Shown here: piece after piece, positions 4,620 through 17,487 of the stretch
How positions within the stretch are numbered: position 1 is the stretch's first letter
Layout of the letters: every line of letters begins with the position of its first letter
Source: a virus
Virus record (IMG/VR): IMGVR_UViG_3300047446_000273
Coordinates: 1 to 22,987 of that record
Length of the DNA: 22,987 nucleotides
Direction: 5' to 3' (one strand)
Program-made: the position numbers and the translations under genes
Notes under the pieces: model-generated
What the model was told of the DNA's origin: nothing
Database searches by the model: none
What the model saw: the letters and a program-made list of their open reading frames with translations, nothing else

Positions 4620-6716
4620 TTACGCTGCGCGTGATTGGCGTTGCTCGGCGCGCCACGGGTCGTTGGCCCGTGCCAGCGCTGCCATCGGCGGTGGGCTGAC
4701 GCTGTTACCGCACATGTGCACCTGCTGGGTCTTGGTGAACGGTTTGCCGTCGGCACCGTGGCTGATGATGTAATCGGCCGGGAAGCCCTGGGCCTTGTAC
4801 AGCTCAGCTGGTTTCAGCATCCGCAGGCAGATGTCGACGATCACGTAGGGCGTACCTTTCACCATCACGGTGACCATAGCCAGGCGGTCCTTGGTGGTGA
4901 TCGTCGGCGCCGGTGAGTCGCAAGCGCTGATGTTCTCCGTGCCGTAGTAGCTGATCAGGAATGCCGCGACGCGCAGGGCGCCCGCCTCATGCTCTGGCGA
5001 CAGGGTGAGCGACACCAGCGAGCTTTTGCCACCGCCGCCGGCCGTGATGGTCGGCGCCGGATCATTCAGCCCCTGGCCGACGCTGCCGCCGAATGCCCGC
5101 TCCATGAACGCGCTGACCAGCCCGTGGTGCTGGCCGCCGGCACTGACGGTGTGCAGCGGTTCGTTTACGTCGCGTGCATCGCAGTTGCCGCGCAAGTGCA
5201 CCAGGTTCGCCACCGCCAGTTGCTGCTGGCTGCCGCTGTTGGTCACGGTCGTCATGGGTTCGTGCATGCCCTTGGCGTGCGTGGTGTTGAACCCGCCGTT
5301 GGCCTGAATCATCACTGCGGTGCTGACGGACTGGCCGCCGCCGCTGGCAGTGACGGTGCCCACCGGCCCGTTGATGTCGTTGATTCCGTGGGAGCGGCGT
5401 TTGTTTGCGCCTGAACCCTCGCCATGTCCGGCCTGGACGATGCAGGCTGATGCCAGTGCATGCTTCACGCCGCCTGCGACAACCGTGCCCAGGGGCTGAT
5501 CCAAGCCAGGCACCCGTGGCTCTTGCCCTTGCCGCTCGCCGTAGCCCGACTGAATCAGCGTGGGGCTGATCAGTGTAAGCTCGCCGCGATTCGCGCAGGT
5601 CACCGTGGGTAGCGGCTCAAGCGGGTCATTGATGCGATCGCTGCCTTGGTGTGTTGCCGGGGCAATCACCGGGCTCACCACCGAGAACGCTCCGCCCTTC
5701 GGGTAGGAGGTGATAGTGCGCAGCGGCTCGCCCGCGGATTGCACCGACTCACCCGACCAGTTCGCGATAGGCACAATGAACGGCGCCGGGCTATCGATGA
5801 CGAATTTCTTCATGCCCTTGGCAACCCGGCGCAGGGTGGCGTCGGCCAGGTCTTTCTTGCGGCCGAAGATACTTTTGCCCAGGTCGCTGAAGTCGATGCA
5901 GTCGGCGGCGGTCTTCCACTTCTGCTGACCCTTGACCGGGTTCTTCGCGTGGGTCGGCTCAGGCCACACCACCGGCCGGCCATCGCACCGGGCGATCATG
6001 AATAGGCGTTCCCGGCTGGTTGGTGCACCGAAGTCGCAGGCCTTGATAACTTTCCACTCCGCCACATAGCCCATGCCTTCCAGCAGGGCCACGAAGCGGC
6101 GCCAGGTGCGGCCGCGCTGTTTCGGGTCAGGCACCAAGAACTGGTTCGACACCGGCACTTGTTCGCCCGGTGCCGCCACCCGGTTGGTGGTTTTCCCTTT
6201 CTTGGTCGGGTGCGGCACCTGGTCCAGGGTCACAACCCGGCCGGTGGCCTTGTCGCGCTTGGCGATCAACCGGCCCCATTGCAGGATCTGCTTCACGTTC
6301 TCCAGGCTGATCACCCGTGGCCGCTTCATGCCTGCCCACTTGAGGCCGATCCACGACAGGTTGCGGATCTCGCGCTTGCGCGGTTGGCCGCCGGCTGCCT
6401 GGGAGTGGTGGGTGCAGTCCGGCGACATATGGAACCAGCCAACGGCCTTGCCGCCGCACTCGGTGTCCGGATCACCCTCGAACACGTCGGTGGTGAAGTG
6501 CTGCGCGCCGGGGTGGTTTACGGTGTGCATGCTGATCGCCTGCGGGCTGTGGTTCTTCGCCACGTTCACCGTGCGACCCAATCCCATCTCCAGGCCGGTC
6601 CCGGCACCTCCGCCACCGCAGAAGAAGTCGACAACGATCTCATCGTCCTGAGGGTTGAAGCCGAGTCCGTATTGGGTTTTGAAATCGAAGGGGTGTTTCT
6701 TCTGTTGTGCGGACAT
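4620..6716 (-). CDS. C5 cytosine DNA methyltransferase with internal tandem repeats
   Basis: A 698-residue S-adenosylmethionine-dependent DNA cytosine methyltransferase. It probably modifies phage DNA against host restriction. Motif I is DFFCGGGGAGTG (30-41). The catalytic motif is SPDCTHHS with nucleophile C101, instead of the classical PCQ. ENV is at 139-141, SRERLFM at 234-240, and the final GNSVSPPP at 670-677. Between motifs VIII and IX, where the target-recognition domain lies, are about eight imperfect repeats of 33-49 residues. Each carries P-x-x-T-[VI]-[TVS], starting near 331, 368, 408, 451, 487, 520, 553 and 602, often followed by Gly-Gly and a hydrophobic strand. GAGG precedes the ATG. 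It is longer than typical Dcm (about 470) because of the repeats. Target sequence unknown. Confidence 0.93.
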   Translation of the reverse strand: MSAQQKKHPFDFKTQYGLGFNPQDDEIVVDFFCGGGGAGTGLEMGLGRTVNVAKNHSPQAISMHTVNHPGAQHFTTDVFEGDPDTECGGKAVGWFHMSPDCTHHSQAAGGQPRKREIRNLSWIGLKWAGMKRPRVISLENVKQILQWGRLIAKRDKATGRVVTLDQVPHPTKKGKTTNRVAAPGEQVPVSNQFLVPDPKQRGRTWRRFVALLEGMGYVAEWKVIKACDFGAPTSRERLFMIARCDGRPVVWPEPTHAKNPVKGQQKWKTAADCIDFSDLGKSIFGRKKDLADATLRRVAKGMKKFVIDSPAPFIVPIANWSGESVQSAGEPLRTITSYPKGGAFSVVSPVIAPATHQGSDRINDPLEPLPTVTCANRGELTLISPTLIQSGYGERQGQEPRVPGLDQPLGTVVAGGVKHALASACIVQAGHGEGSGANKRRSHGINDINGPVGTVTASGGGQSVSTAVMIQANGGFNTTHAKGMHEPMTTVTNSGSQQQLAVANLVHLRGNCDARDVNEPLHTVSAGGQHHGLVSAFMERAFGGSVGQGLNDPAPTITAGGGGKSSLVSLTLSPEHEAGALRVAAFLISYYGTENISACDSPAPTITTKDRLAMVTVMVKGTPYVIVDICLRMLKPAELYKAQGFPADYIISHGADGKPFTKTQQVHMCGNSVSPPPMAALARANDPWRAEQRQSRAA

Positions 6717-10638: not shown

Positions 10639-10877
10639 AGTGCCTCCGCGAGTTTGCGCAGCGCGTTACGCTCAGCCCTTGTCAGAACTGGCTTGCGGCG
10701 CTTGAGGATGGTTTCGGGATCGATGTTGGTCGAGCGCTTGGCGGGCGGCGGGTTAAGGGCCGGGCTCTCGCCCTGGTAGATCGTTCCGCCGGCGGCCAGG
10801 AACTGGGCTACCTTCGCGTTGATGGCGTCGGATAGCGGTCGGTGTGCCTCGACGATGGTCTGGTGATTGCTGATCAT
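10635..10877 (-). CDS. Hypothetical phage protein
   Basis: An 80-residue protein. Helical HRPLSDAINAKVAQFLAAGGTIYQGESPALNPPP comes first, then a strongly basic tail (TILKRRKPVLTRAERNALRKLAEAL). The basic C terminus suggests nucleic-acid contact. It overlaps its neighbours by ATGA at both ends (exonuclease upstream, HNH gene downstream), so it belongs to the recombination operon. No family recognised with certainty. Confidence 0.7.
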   Translation of the reverse strand: MISNHQTIVEAHRPLSDAINAKVAQFLAAGGTIYQGESPALNPPPAKRSTNIDPETILKRRKPVLTRAERNALRKLAEAL

Positions 10878-11491
10878 GCCGCGATCCCCAGCACCTGGTT
10901 CATACGGTCATCGAGGATTTCGTAGAAGGTCTTCACCCGTTCCGAAAGTTTTCGGATCATCGCCTCGTCCCGGTACGCGCGCTTGATGAACAGCGGCATC
11001 CCCGGCCAGTAGCAAACAAAGTCGATCCACTCGCGCTCTGAGATCCACAGGCCGCCCTGGCACTGGGCGACGTGTTCCTTTGGAATCTCACCGGACAGGA
11101 TCACTTCGACCTGAAACTTCGGCAGTTTGGTTTTGATTTCCGTCAGGCCCTTGGTCCCCACCAGCGAGTCAGGCGAATAGCCGGCGCCGTGGTTGAGGAT
11201 GATTGCCACCTGGCTGGTTTCAACTTCTTCGCGCTCTTCGTAGAGCTTGCGGGCGACAGCCTCCAGCTCGTGGCCGCGCTCAGTGTGCCGGTTGCCCATG
11301 AACGGGTCGGCTGCTTCGCCGGTGATGCGCTCGCCGATCAGCGTGTTCATGTAGGTGATGGCGCCGGCGCCGAAACCGGCCTCGCCTTTGCCGTTGACCA
11401 GCAGACACTCCAGCTCGGAGCAGGTGACGATGCCCAAGCGCAATGCCAGCCACTCAGGCGAGCCTTGCTGTACTTCGGTGATGATTTGCAT
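10874..11491 (-). CDS. YqaJ / lambda-Exo type 5'-3' exonuclease
   Basis: A 205-residue nuclease that would resect double-stranded DNA ends for phage recombination, working with the ERF protein encoded just upstream. The family's opening motif is present (QGSPEWLALRLGIVTCSE, W14 and R18), followed by ERGHELEAVARKLYEE (71-86). The catalytic set is D108 (YSPDSLVG), E118 and K120 (TEIKTK), with the same 10- and 2-residue spacing as D119, E129 and K131 of lambda Exo. QCQGGLWIS (143-151) is the family's substrate-binding helix. An AGGAG site spans the stop of the ERF gene, three bases upstream, so the two are coupled. Confidence 0.93.
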   Translation of the reverse strand: MQIITEVQQGSPEWLALRLGIVTCSELECLLVNGKGEAGFGAGAITYMNTLIGERITGEAADPFMGNRHTERGHELEAVARKLYEEREEVETSQVAIILNHGAGYSPDSLVGTKGLTEIKTKLPKFQVEVILSGEIPKEHVAQCQGGLWISEREWIDFVCYWPGMPLFIKRAYRDEAMIRKLSERVKTFYEILDDRMNQVLGIAA

Positions 11492-11494
11492 GGC

Positions 11495-12256
11495 TTACTC
11501 CTGTGGCCGGCTGGTGGCTTTGCTGATTCGCGCCGAGACGGCATCGAATTCGGATTTGAAGACGTTGGCTGCGCAACCGTACTTGGCGGTGAAATTGTCC
11601 TGGAGTACCTGGCTGCACTTCTTCAGCAGCGCGTCGAGTTGGGCGGCTTGGCCGGGGGTGATAACTGGCTCTGACGGGGTATCGGGCTTTTTGCCGGCGT
11701 CCTGGCCGTCGTCGTCCTCGCCGGTGGTGGTGAAGTTGAGCAGGGCGCCGGCGGTATAGCGCTTGCCGTAGCTGACCGAGCTGGCGACAGCCTGGACAGC
11801 GTTTTTGCTGCCGGTGGCGTCAGCGGGAAGGAGGATCGAGGTGGTTTCACGGTGCCCGTCTTTGTGGCTCAGCACACCCTCAACTTCGACCCCGGTTGCT
11901 CCGCGCGGGATGCGGAACGAAAGGGCGAAGCCGTATTTTGCAAGAATGGGTTTTAGTTGTTCGTTGATGTCTTCCCAGAGGGCATAGGTGGATTGAACGT
12001 TCTTGAATTTGTCGCGGATGGCGCCACGCTCGCGGATCACCGGGAGCTTCTTTTGCATTTCGGACATCGCGGCATCGAAGGCCTGTTTTGCGAGTCGGTC
12101 CTGGTGCTGCTGGTGCATCACCATCAGCCGTTCCATCTTGTCGATGTCGGCGGCGGGGTTGGTGGCCACCTGCTGGATGATCGCCATGATCGTGGCGGAT
12201 TCGCTTTGTGCGGCCGGCACGCGCTCGACCGGGTCTTTCACTGCAAGATTGCTCAT
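11495..12256 (-). CDS. erf: ERF-family single-strand annealing protein
   Basis: A 253-residue protein of the P22 Erf class, which anneals complementary single strands during phage genome circularisation and recombination. The family core spans about residues 55-180: FDAAMSEMQKKLPVI, FKNVQSTYALWEDINEQLKPILAKYGFALSFRI, and VASSVSYGKRYTAGALLNFTTTGEDDDG, the signature that places it with ERF rather than Redbeta. The C-terminal 70 residues are variable (PSEPVITPGQAAQLDALLKKCSQVL, a helical tail). GAGG overlaps the stop of the coiled-coil gene upstream. The start context GAGGTCGCCATGAGC is repeated at 14913. Confidence 0.92.
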   Translation of the reverse strand: MSNLAVKDPVERVPAAQSESATIMAIIQQVATNPAADIDKMERLMVMHQQHQDRLAKQAFDAAMSEMQKKLPVIRERGAIRDKFKNVQSTYALWEDINEQLKPILAKYGFALSFRIPRGATGVEVEGVLSHKDGHRETTSILLPADATGSKNAVQAVASSVSYGKRYTAGALLNFTTTGEDDDGQDAGKKPDTPSEPVITPGQAAQLDALLKKCSQVLQDNFTAKYGCAANVFKSEFDAVSARISKATSRPQE

Positions 12257-15777: not shown

Positions 15778-15850
15778 CGGCATCCATGGGTGGGCTCGAA
15801 CCACCGGCGCGCCTTTTGCGAGGCCGCTCTACCAACTGAGCTACATGGTC
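15778..15850 (-). tRNA. Degenerate tRNA-like gene
   Basis: Leftward strand: acceptor GACCATG, then TA, D arm GCTCAGTTGGTAGAGC, anticodon region, T arm GGTGG-TTCGAGC-CCACC, then CATGGAT and discriminator G followed by CCG rather than CCA. The acceptor has a mismatch (second pair A/A) and a G-T pair. The stretch between D arm and T arm is 20 bases instead of about 23, so the anticodon arm is short (best stem GCCT/AGGC) and the identity cannot be assigned. It is either a decayed phage tRNA or a tRNA mimic. The intrinsic terminator at 15600 lies about 150 bases downstream. Confidence 0.6.
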
Positions 15851-16001: not shown

Positions 16002-16169
16002 TCAGTTGCTCGCCTGGATGAACAAGTCGACCAGGGCGGTCAGCAGTGCATCGTGATCAAGGTTTTCAACAGGCAGGCCAACATCCTGAAAGGTTGCAAT
16101 TGCCCGCCCCAGTGCATCGCTCACGATTTCCTGATCTTCGGGCTCAAGGTCTGCGTATTCGGTTTTCAT
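16002..16169 (-). CDS. Hypothetical acidic small protein
   Basis: A 55-residue protein, MKTEYADLEPEDQEIVSDAL then IATFQDVGLPVENLDHDALLTALVDLFIQASN. The start at 16169 has GGAGG eight to ten bases upstream; longer reading would cross the hairpin at 16202-16227. Strongly acidic and helical. Such small acidic early proteins in phages often bind host enzymes or mimic DNA, but that is only a possibility here. Confidence 0.65.
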   Translation of the reverse strand: MKTEYADLEPEDQEIVSDALGRAIATFQDVGLPVENLDHDALLTALVDLFIQASN

Positions 16170-16201
16170 CGTGTTGCCCTCCAGGGCGGTGATTACATCC
16201 G

Positions 16202-16227
16202 TCTGCCCACTCGGTGGAATGGGCAGA
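16202..16227 (-). promoter_or_regulatory. Intergenic hairpin, family 1 copy D
   Basis: TCTGCCCA/TGGGCAGA (8 bp) around a 10-base loop that reads TTCCACCGAG on the leftward RNA. It lies just after the stop of the 16238-16498 gene, and a GGAGG-led gene follows. Flanks are the most diverged of the four copies. Confidence 0.6.
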
Positions 16228-16237
16228 GGTGATGCGG

Positions 16238-16498
16238 TCAGATTTCTTGAACTTCGCCGGAAGCGATGCGGGCAGCACAAAGCGCATCGCCTTGTGCCTG
16301 GTCGTCATCGTCCTTGCCAAGAAACATGAAGCCTTCTTCCGGCACTTCCTGAAATTGCGCGTAGAGCCCAGGGCCGCTGTGGGCGCTGTTGTCCTCAACG
16401 AGGATCAGCGTCATGTCGTCATAGGCTTCGGGGTCGCTGCTGCCTTCGGAAAGCTCCAACAGCTCTTTGATTTGGCGGTGCGTGATGTGGATTCGCAT
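16238..16498 (-). CDS. Hypothetical small phage protein
   Basis: An 86-residue acidic protein (MRIHITHRQIKELLELSEGS, then PEAYDDMTLILVEDN, GPGLYAQFQEVPEEGFMFLGKDDDD). The start at 16498 is supported by CGGAG nine bases upstream; starting at 16606 would translate the family 1 hairpin. The N-terminal helix plus two-strand pattern is compatible with a small regulatory domain; no family recognised. Confidence 0.65.
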   Translation of the reverse strand: MRIHITHRQIKELLELSEGSSDPEAYDDMTLILVEDNSAHSGPGLYAQFQEVPEEGFMFLGKDDDDQAQGDALCAARIASGEVQEI

Positions 16499-16523
16499 GT
16501 CTGTTGCTCCGGTTGTTTTCCCA

Positions 16524-16545
16524 ATGCACCCGTCGCCAGGTGCAT
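16524..16545 (-). promoter_or_regulatory. Intergenic hairpin, family 1 copy C
   Basis: ATGCACC/GGTGCAT (7 bp) with an 8-base loop. On the leftward RNA it is preceded by TTTTCACTG and followed by TGGGAAAACAACCGGAG and the ATG at 16498. The flanks match copies A and B while the stem is different. Confidence 0.7.
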
Positions 16546-16562
16546 CAGTGAAAAGTCCCGCT

Positions 16563-16841
16563 TTATCGCCAGGGATAACCGGGATACGGCTCTCCAGAAA
16601 GCCCATGCTCGGCTTGTCCGGCCAGCTTCTCCCAAAGCGCTTTTAGGCGCTTTCGACCCTTCCTCGTCTCCTGATCCGGTATCACCGTCTTCGCCAAAGC
16701 GAGGCCGCATTCTTCGCTGCAACAGCTGAAGCCATGTCCCCACGAAGTGCTCCACATGCGCGCTCCGCCCCATTCATCTTTGGCATCTTTCGCGCCGCAT
16801 TGCGGGCAGTCGTGGGTGAGGAAGTACTGTCTGGAACGCAT
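16563..16841 (-). CDS. Zinc-ribbon-like small phage protein
   Basis: A 92-residue protein with GAGGG upstream of the ATG. CPQC (residues 12-15) and CCSEEC (about 40-45) form a likely four-cysteine zinc ribbon with an aromatic, Gly-rich turn between (EWGGARMWSTSWGHGF). The C-terminal half is basic and helical (ETRKGRKRLKALWEKLAG). Nucleic-acid binding is plausible. It is flanked on both sides by family 1 hairpins. Confidence 0.7.
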   Translation of the reverse strand: MRSRQYFLTHDCPQCGAKDAKDEWGGARMWSTSWGHGFSCCSEECGLALAKTVIPDQETRKGRKRLKALWEKLAGQAEHGLSGEPYPGYPWR

Positions 16842-16867
16842 GTCGCTGCCCTCGGTTGATTTCCCGT

Positions 16868-16889
16868 CAGGCCCTCTTGCGAAGGCCTG
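16868..16889 (-). promoter_or_regulatory. Intergenic hairpin, family 1 copy B
   Basis: CAGGCC/GGCCTG (6 bp) around a 10-base loop reading TTCGCAAGAG on the leftward RNA. It is preceded by TTTCACTG and followed by GGGAAATCAACCGAGG before the ATG at 16841. Confidence 0.7.
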
Positions 16890-16901
16890 CCAGTGAAATC
16901 T

Positions 16902-17102
16902 TCACTCCGGCACCCTGATCGGCTGCTGGTCGATGATCGTGATTGAACCCCGATCAGTTACCGCGACCCTGGCAGTCAAGCCTGGATGGAGCTCAGCAAG
17001 CCGCGGGTGCGACTTAAAGTCCGTGACTCGACCGGTGCGATCGCCAAGGCCGAGGTAGATCACGTCTCCTATTTCAATTTCACTGCCGCGCTTCGTTGGC
17101 AT
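16902..17102 (-). CDS. Hypothetical small beta-rich phage protein
   Basis: A 66-residue protein, MPTKRGSEIEIGDVIYLGLG, then GRVTDFKSHPRLAELHPGLTARVAVTDRGSITIIDQQPIRV. The start at 17102 has CCGGAG nine bases upstream. The alternation of short strands suggests a small SH3-like barrel, possibly nucleic-acid binding; this is a fold guess. It is the second gene of the early-left transcript. Confidence 0.65.
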   Translation of the reverse strand: MPTKRGSEIEIGDVIYLGLGDRTGRVTDFKSHPRLAELHPGLTARVAVTDRGSITIIDQQPIRVPE

Positions 17103-17119
17103 TTCCGTATCTCCGGTTG

Positions 17120-17332
17120 TCATCCCAAGCAGCCCTCGCGAGAAGGCTGCTCAGTGATGCTGTTCAGTTGAACCCGTGCAAAATTTGCATTAGTTCGTTT
17201 CTCCACCACGCGCATCGCCCGATTCATATCTCTGGCCAGGTCACACATTCCGTGAACGGTGTTCTTCCCGGCTGGCTTGCGTGGTATCGCGTACTCACAT
17301 GAGGGAGTACGGCAGCTATCCAGAGGCTGCAT
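17120..17332 (-). CDS. Possible first gene of the early-left operon
   Basis: The frame from ATG at 17332 encodes 70 residues, with a protein-like stretch YAIPRKPAGKNTVHGMCDLARDMNRAMRVVEKRTNANFARVQL. The frame is open further upstream to 17500, but that would begin before the promoter's start point, so an internal start is needed. The ribosome site at 17332 is poor (GGAAGAAG at a long distance). Its 3' end runs through hairpin A. A TGA in another frame sits just before that hairpin, so the end may be altered by a frameshift. Confidence 0.45.
   Translation of the reverse strand: MQPLDSCRTPSCEYAIPRKPAGKNTVHGMCDLARDMNRAMRVVEKRTNANFARVQLNSITEQPSREGCLG
17128..17151 (-). promoter_or_regulatory. Intergenic hairpin, family 1 copy A
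   Basis: AGCAGCC/GGCTGCT (7 bp) around a 10-base loop reading TTCTCGCGAG on the leftward RNA. It is preceded by ATCACTG and followed by TGGGATGACAACCGGAG before the ATG at 17102. Confidence 0.7.
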
Positions 17333-17355
17333 GGGCGGCGGTTTAGCTTCTTCCG

Positions 17356-17410
17356 ACCCAGGTAATGGCCTGGGTACGTCGCGGGGGTCACGTCGGGTTG
17401 TTAAAGAGCG
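17356..17410 (-). promoter_or_regulatory. nut-like antitermination site (boxA and boxB)
   Basis: CGCTCTTTAACA on the leftward strand (17399-17410) matches the bacterial boxA consensus bound by NusB/NusE. About 25 bases further along the transcript, ACCCAGG and CCTGGGT (17369-17375 and 17356-17362) form a 7-bp hairpin with a 6-base loop, in the position of boxB. It lies in the leader of the operator-controlled leftward promoter, as nutL does in lambda. No lambda N-like gene is recognised, although the first small genes are candidates. Confidence 0.65.
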
Positions 17411-17458: not shown

Positions 17459-17487
17459 AATATAGGCACTCCCATATTTGTCGTCAA
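17459..17487 (-). promoter_or_regulatory. Early leftward promoter (PL-like)
   Basis: Leftward TTGACG (17482-17487), exactly 17 bp, then TATATT (17459-17464), giving a start near 17452. One operator covers the spacer and the other overlaps the -35, so repressor binding should block it. It drives the leftward early genes through the nut-like leader. Confidence 0.75.

Follow-up and report, generated by a model that had tools for sequence, protein, structure and literature searches.

Recurrent hairpin RNAs ahead of small early genes: a widespread, apparently undescribed element of early mRNA in Pseudomonas phages and genomes

The window analyzed here is the whole stretch of 22,987 nucleotides of the virus record IMGVR_UViG_3300047446_000273. 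According to our analysis, its early-left region contains a promoter-like site, a boxA, a leader and four consecutive small genes, with one hairpin for each of these genes. The features are given below, all of them on the minus strand; the E values of the hairpins come from a held-out covariance model, which was built without any window sequence.

17459..17487, minus strand: promoter-like site, TTGACG, 17 nt, TATATT, a putative early-left promoter from a consensus scan
17399..17409, minus strand: boxA GCTCTTTAACA, a perfect match to the consensus GYTCTTTAANA (PMC5725501), with 0.04 expected by chance
17165..17398, minus strand: early-left leader between boxA and copy 1
17114..17164, minus strand: hairpin copy 1, lower stem CAUC/GAUG, bulged A, upper stem, tetraloop UCGC, CAACC tail (E = 1.1e-16)
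16902..17102, minus strand: small gene 1, 66 aa, its ATG behind copy 1, no known family
16853..16903, minus strand: hairpin copy 2, GAUUUC/GAAAUC, bulged A, tetraloop GCAA, CAACC tail (E = 3.8e-19)
16563..16841, minus strand: small gene 2, 92 aa, several cysteines, no known family
16510..16558, minus strand: hairpin copy 3, UUUUC/GAAAA, bulged A, tetraloop GCGA, CAACC tail (E = 4.6e-12)
16238..16498, minus strand: small gene 3, 86 aa, weak PHROG match of unknown function
16189..16239, minus strand: hairpin copy 4, diverged, without CACTG and without CAACC (E = 0.0018)
16176..16187, minus strand: mini-hairpin GCCC-UGGA-GGGC behind copy 4, with the Shine-Dalgarno (SD) sequence in its loop, from folding
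16002..16169, minus strand: small gene 4, 55 aa

The promoter-like region aligns with DNA of D3 and PMG1, and a promoter is annotated there in PMG1. The same early region also encodes an Erf-like annealing protein (11495-12256), a RecE/exonuclease-like protein (10874-11491) and a long C-5 cytosine methylase (4620-6716), and ARAGORN reports a tRNA-like sequence with an ambiguous anticodon at 15779-15850, whose DNA resembles tRNA-Met genes of Gordonia phages.

The four hairpins of the preliminary description were all present where it had placed them, on the minus strand of the window and with significant folds. Every copy forms a single uninterrupted hairpin of −24 to −27.7 kcal/mol, with z scores of −5.8 to −7.0 against dinucleotide shuffles. 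The four are copies of one RNA module of approximately 50 nt. Its stem of 17 to 19 bp contains two near-invariant U·G pairs as well as a bulged A and is capped by a tetraloop; the CAACC tail is unpaired, and an SD sequence and then the start codon follow it downstream. In the numbering of the model (1 to 51), the lower stem of copy 1 pairs positions 6 to 9 with 41 to 44; above it come the bulged A10, the pairs C11-G40, U12-G39 (a wobble) and G13-U38, and a variable middle, and the top is formed by C19 C20 U21 U22 with A29 G30 G31 G32, with the tetraloop at 24 to 27 and the CAACC tail at 46 to 50. The upper part of copy 3 is shorter and carries a GCGA loop. Copy 4 is a diverged member of the module: its fold is similar to that of the other copies, but CACTG and CAACC are missing, and the held-out model detects it far more weakly than copies 1 to 3. 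The hairpins are longer than the stems of 6 to 8 bp originally proposed, with the CACTG and YGGGA flanks paired and forming a lower stem with the bulged A. The 10-base sequence TTCNCNNGAG is indeed there, but it is not a loop, being mostly paired (UUC with GAG) so that only a tetraloop is left. The TGGGA and CAACCGGAG said to follow the stem occur in copies 1 and 3, whereas copy 2 has CGGGA and CAACCGAGG in their place.

The module extends well beyond the window. A strict pattern matched 109 viral stretches as well as 27 stretches in 84,980 species genomes, all 27 of them from Pseudomonas; with such a recurrence, the window hairpins are not a chance occurrence. An initial loose pattern scan also picked up many chance matches; once pairing was required, these dropped out and about 46 true hairpins remained in viral contigs. 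BLAST retrieved 26 Pseudomonas phage records, including phiPSA1, psageK9, Aurca01, Medea1, MD8, phi297, LESphi3, 5371 and phi2. When 40 whole phage records were inspected, 39 were found to carry one to three copies (E ≤ 0.01), nearly always clustered, and another 24 records gave the same picture; the window has four. The exception among the 40, D3, has at the same place a diverged form (7 bp, a 2×2 internal loop, 10 bp and a CCAACC tail), which was recognized by eye and is supported by folding. As the window itself is a virus record, the genome samples were centered on Pseudomonas genomes obtained from the strict-pattern matches. In these samples, the covariance model matched 136 of 298 genomes from one Pseudomonas genus (E ≤ 1e-4; 75 of the 136 reach E ≤ 1e-9) and 61 of 298 from the family, and in the class sample only the center genome matched out of 369, with 0 of 368 other gammaproteobacteria. 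Detected copies are thus restricted to Pseudomonadaceae and their phages. The model search proposed in the preliminary description for this phage, its relatives and Pseudomonas prophages has yielded many further copies. Some of the weaker genome matches correspond to a related hairpin, GCAUUACUGAAAAGCC..GGCUUUUUGGAAUGC, which stands in the leader sequence of tailocin-like clusters (loci L267, L268, L270, L271, L272 and L276). This terminator-like variant of the module is flanked by a gene for a PrtR-like repressor on one side and a holin-like gene on the other, and lies near mutS in L270, the gene names being assigned by eye.

Covariation was evaluated in two sets. With 48 distinct copies aligned by MAFFT alone, 92% of the cells pair, two-sided changes are found at 13 of 19 pairs, and the covariation score is 0.495, compared with 0.143 for shuffled alignments and at most 0.119 when partners are slid. 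The second set, mainly Pseudomonas genomes together with named phages, was aligned to the model and is hence biased toward it; here two-sided changes occur at 15 of 19 pairs and the score is 0.568 versus 0.167. The module is therefore under RNA-level selection: the selection for RNA structure supposed from the four original hairpins is strongly supported by the covariation in both sets, and more copies as well as more covariation were found beyond these four. Taking one copy per downstream family (n = 87), the 51 nt carry 1.04 bits per position, versus 0.05 to 0.24 in the flanks, and positions 15 to 18 and 33 to 36 hold only 0.03 to 0.64 bits yet are still paired. Two blocks of the module are near invariant. 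Among the unique cores, the bulged A is kept in 105 of 110 and the two U-G wobbles in 103 and 96 of 110, while the tetraloop is variable and has no conserved GGA. Because the near-invariant wobbles and the bulged A make the two strands of the element unequal, they favor an RNA structure over a palindrome in DNA; positions that vary yet stay paired, next to fixed ones, are the pattern expected from a specific reader of an RNA helix.

The collection assembled comprises 298 module copies, of which 223 have an SD sequence and ATG 8 to 35 nt downstream on the hairpin strand, compared with 4 on the other strand. The genes downstream belong to about 95 unrelated families, and a single identical core precedes 17 unrelated gene families, another one 16. 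The copies share ancestry by recombination, so some of the conservation may simply reflect descent. In several prophages (L073, at 5795-6040, L260, L275 and L282), a copy is directly followed by a gene of the CsrA family (Pfam PF02599, with E = 4.6e-26 in one case). The mini-hairpin pattern CCC[TC]GGAGG recurs behind 22 module copies, in 17 gene families, and mini-hairpins with the SD sequence in the loop, as at 16176-16187 of the window, were also noted in L073, L094, L184, L194, L227 and L228.

The named phages usually present the order of promoter region, boxA-like CGCTCTTT, leader, hairpin and first gene. In 118 of 164 loci, compared with 2 of 136 control stretches, a boxA-like site precedes the first hairpin by no more than 700 nt, and the median distance between the two is 226 nt across loci. 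The hairpins belong to a shared boxA-led early transcript region, and their position before start codons between early-left genes, as initially described, is borne out by the SD and ATG counts, the locus order and the boxA counts. The leader has its own blocks common to different phages (window 17165-17398; L002, L228, L230, L232 and L233), e.g., GCCTCTACCGGCGACCGGCGATC, and the leaders of the window and of psageK9 have CCACGCAAGCCAGCCGGGAAGAACACCG in common. These shared blocks upstream of the first hairpin are possibly nut- or put-like RNA.

The hairpins had been suggested to be mobile or duplicated; identical hairpins before unrelated genes agree with this, but recent duplicates within a phage are missing. 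In 80 distinct loci with at least two hairpins, none of the 123 within-phage pairs shares 20 exact bases, whereas permutations expect 7.7 such pairs when free and 4.2 when order is kept (P = 0.017). Neighboring hairpins lie about 300 bp apart, and there is no locus in which two downstream genes are of the same family. Long direct repeats at this distance would be lost by recombination, so that copies would persist only with diverged letters and with their pairing kept. The divergence of stems within a phage is thus probably an avoidance of recombining direct repeats, as judged from a moderate statistic, and this may explain why stems differ within the same frame; the avoidance could partly reflect order-specific classes, given that the order-stratified P is only 0.017.

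Several known elements resemble the module. RNase III hairpins are known in the early mRNA of T7 and in the N leader of lambda, where the hairpin lies between nutL and N. Like them, the module is found in intergenic or leader positions of an early polycistronic phage mRNA, near a downstream start, and has the double-stranded stem of an RNase III site; unlike them, it is under stronger sequence constraint, and its cleavage is only a candidate function. By position and form, we deem the T7 and lambda hairpins the closest working analogues. HK022, a lambdoid phage, likewise has a structured RNA in its early leader; this put element comprises two hairpins, whereas the module consists of single hairpins recurring before several genes. 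In Rfam release 15, no match was detected at the gathering threshold in the window or in seven related loci, and a relaxed threshold gave chance-level matches only. Searches of the open literature, outside most subscription journals, turned up no description of the module, and we regard it as a candidate element for the control or processing of early mRNA that is widespread and apparently undescribed. Start-associated repeats in phages are already known as a kind. The ESAS of Cluster K mycobacteriophages, whose arms follow a conserved 17-bp consensus beside the 13-bp GGGATAGGAGCCC repeat, are imperfect inverted repeats with a variable spacer and unknown function (PMC3203893). As with ESAS/SAS, the inverted repeats described here recur within one phage just upstream of translation starts of unrelated, non-structural genes. 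They differ in the free and covarying middle of the stem, the bulged A, the tetraloop and the hosts; moreover, GGGATAGGAGCCC was not seen between hairpin and start, where CAACC and the SD sequence stand instead.

On balance, we favor the reading that the hairpins are a cis-acting element of the early-left mRNA that would be recognized by a trans-acting factor. Each copy fills the space that separates two small genes, or that separates gene 1 from the boxA-led leader, and ends about 18 nt ahead of a start codon. Its shape is fixed (approximately 19 bp with an irregularity beyond the lower stem, a pair of U-G wobbles, a tetraloop and the CAACC tail), with mid-stem letters free as long as they pair. 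The factor, whose existence we infer, would recognize the two conserved helix blocks. No phage protein family was common to all 11 named carriers (BLAST, E of 1e-4), a search that could miss a fast-evolving phage protein, and a universal phage-encoded binder was set aside on this result; the reader is therefore probably a host protein, or else such a missed phage protein. The plausibility of this reading would be divided about evenly between two kinds of reader, with RNase III as the leading candidate and another RNA-binding regulator nearly as likely.

If the reader were RNase III, the host enzyme would cut each hairpin of the polycistronic transcript and thereby separate the small cistrons from one another and, at copy 1, gene 1 from the boxA leader, giving every small gene a 5′ end of its own. 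We consider this possible in view of the near-continuous 17- to 19-bp stem with its irregularity, the intergenic place in an early polycistronic transcript with one copy per gene in the window, the failure of the search to find a phage-encoded binder, and the distance of the first copy from boxA, which compares with the structured interval of about 200 bp by which nutL precedes N in lambda (PMC5725501). RNase III acts on T7 and lambda RNAs, and its sites in E. coli have no striking sequence pattern (PMC5371410), whereas the near-invariant bases and fixed length of the module are stricter than the known needs of the enzyme and seem to fit a more specific reader better. This is where an operator for a host or phage RNA-binding regulator, e.g., a binder of bulged-A hairpins tuning translation or decay of the small genes, has its appeal, as it would explain the two conserved blocks with their bulged A and wobbles; it is hardly less possible than RNase III, even though no phage protein is common to all carriers. 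A CsrA-family binder would be a weak special case, suggested by the csrA-type genes that some copies precede in several prophages; these genes stand behind few copies only, and the variable tetraloop has no conserved GGA, and thus CsrA was rejected as the reader.

The remaining readings appear less convincing. The position ahead of the SD sequence, which is slightly more open than with a shuffled hairpin (0.516 versus 0.489, P = 0.0003), would suit a passive structure, i.e., a generic stabilizer or insulator of the mRNA by which ribosome-binding sites would stay accessible. In silico deletion of the hairpin, however, has no significant effect on predicted SD access (0.516 versus 0.507, P = 0.15), and such a structure would not require invariant letters. 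Since the deletion barely alters access, the hairpin is unlikely to act through local folding alone; insulating or sequestering the SD sequence locally has little effect in folding, and we hold the passive reading to be unlikely as well. A transcription signal (terminator, attenuator or put-like antiterminator) would agree with the boxA-led early transcript and with the terminator-like appearance of the related tailocin-like leader hairpin (AAAAGCC..GGCUUUUU), but 0 of 298 copies have four or more consecutive T in the 20 nt after the stem, and several copies lie between genes. An intrinsic terminator is rejected on this count for the early-left copies, and the wider transcription reading is improbable. 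Most doubtful of all is a recombination linker, i.e., a conserved boundary sequence for the exchange of small genes among phages: the identical cores before 17 and 16 unrelated families speak for it, whereas the compensatory changes on both sides of the stem and the conserved U-G wobbles indicate RNA, and copies within a phage avoid identity. Any linker role may be secondary to a function of the RNA. A mimic of the type I-F CRISPR repeat (Racr), prompted by TTCACTG, was also discarded, its 5-bp stem CTGCC/GGCAG being present in 0 of 298 copies and having no match in the window.

Returning to a cis-acting element read in trans, we tentatively propose, as a bolder extension that may well be wrong, that one host RNA-binding protein or nuclease would read this hairpin in early transcripts from a very large number of unrelated prophages, as a Pseudomonas-specific code and a common point of post-transcriptional control, with phages diversifying their stems against tandem recombination. 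In any case, a structured RNA that is absent from Rfam is present in nearly half of the species genomes sampled from one Pseudomonas genus and, in a diverged form in D3, in named phages such as phi297, LESphi3, MD8 and phiPSA1, being unannotated in the records viewed. If the statistic holds, the divergence of paired stems within one genome would be a natural example of repeat avoidance under structural constraint. For many tiny early genes, most of them of unknown function, the module indicates the true start, and covariance models together with exact mutants would give a handle on the processing and regulation of early mRNA in Pseudomonas phages.
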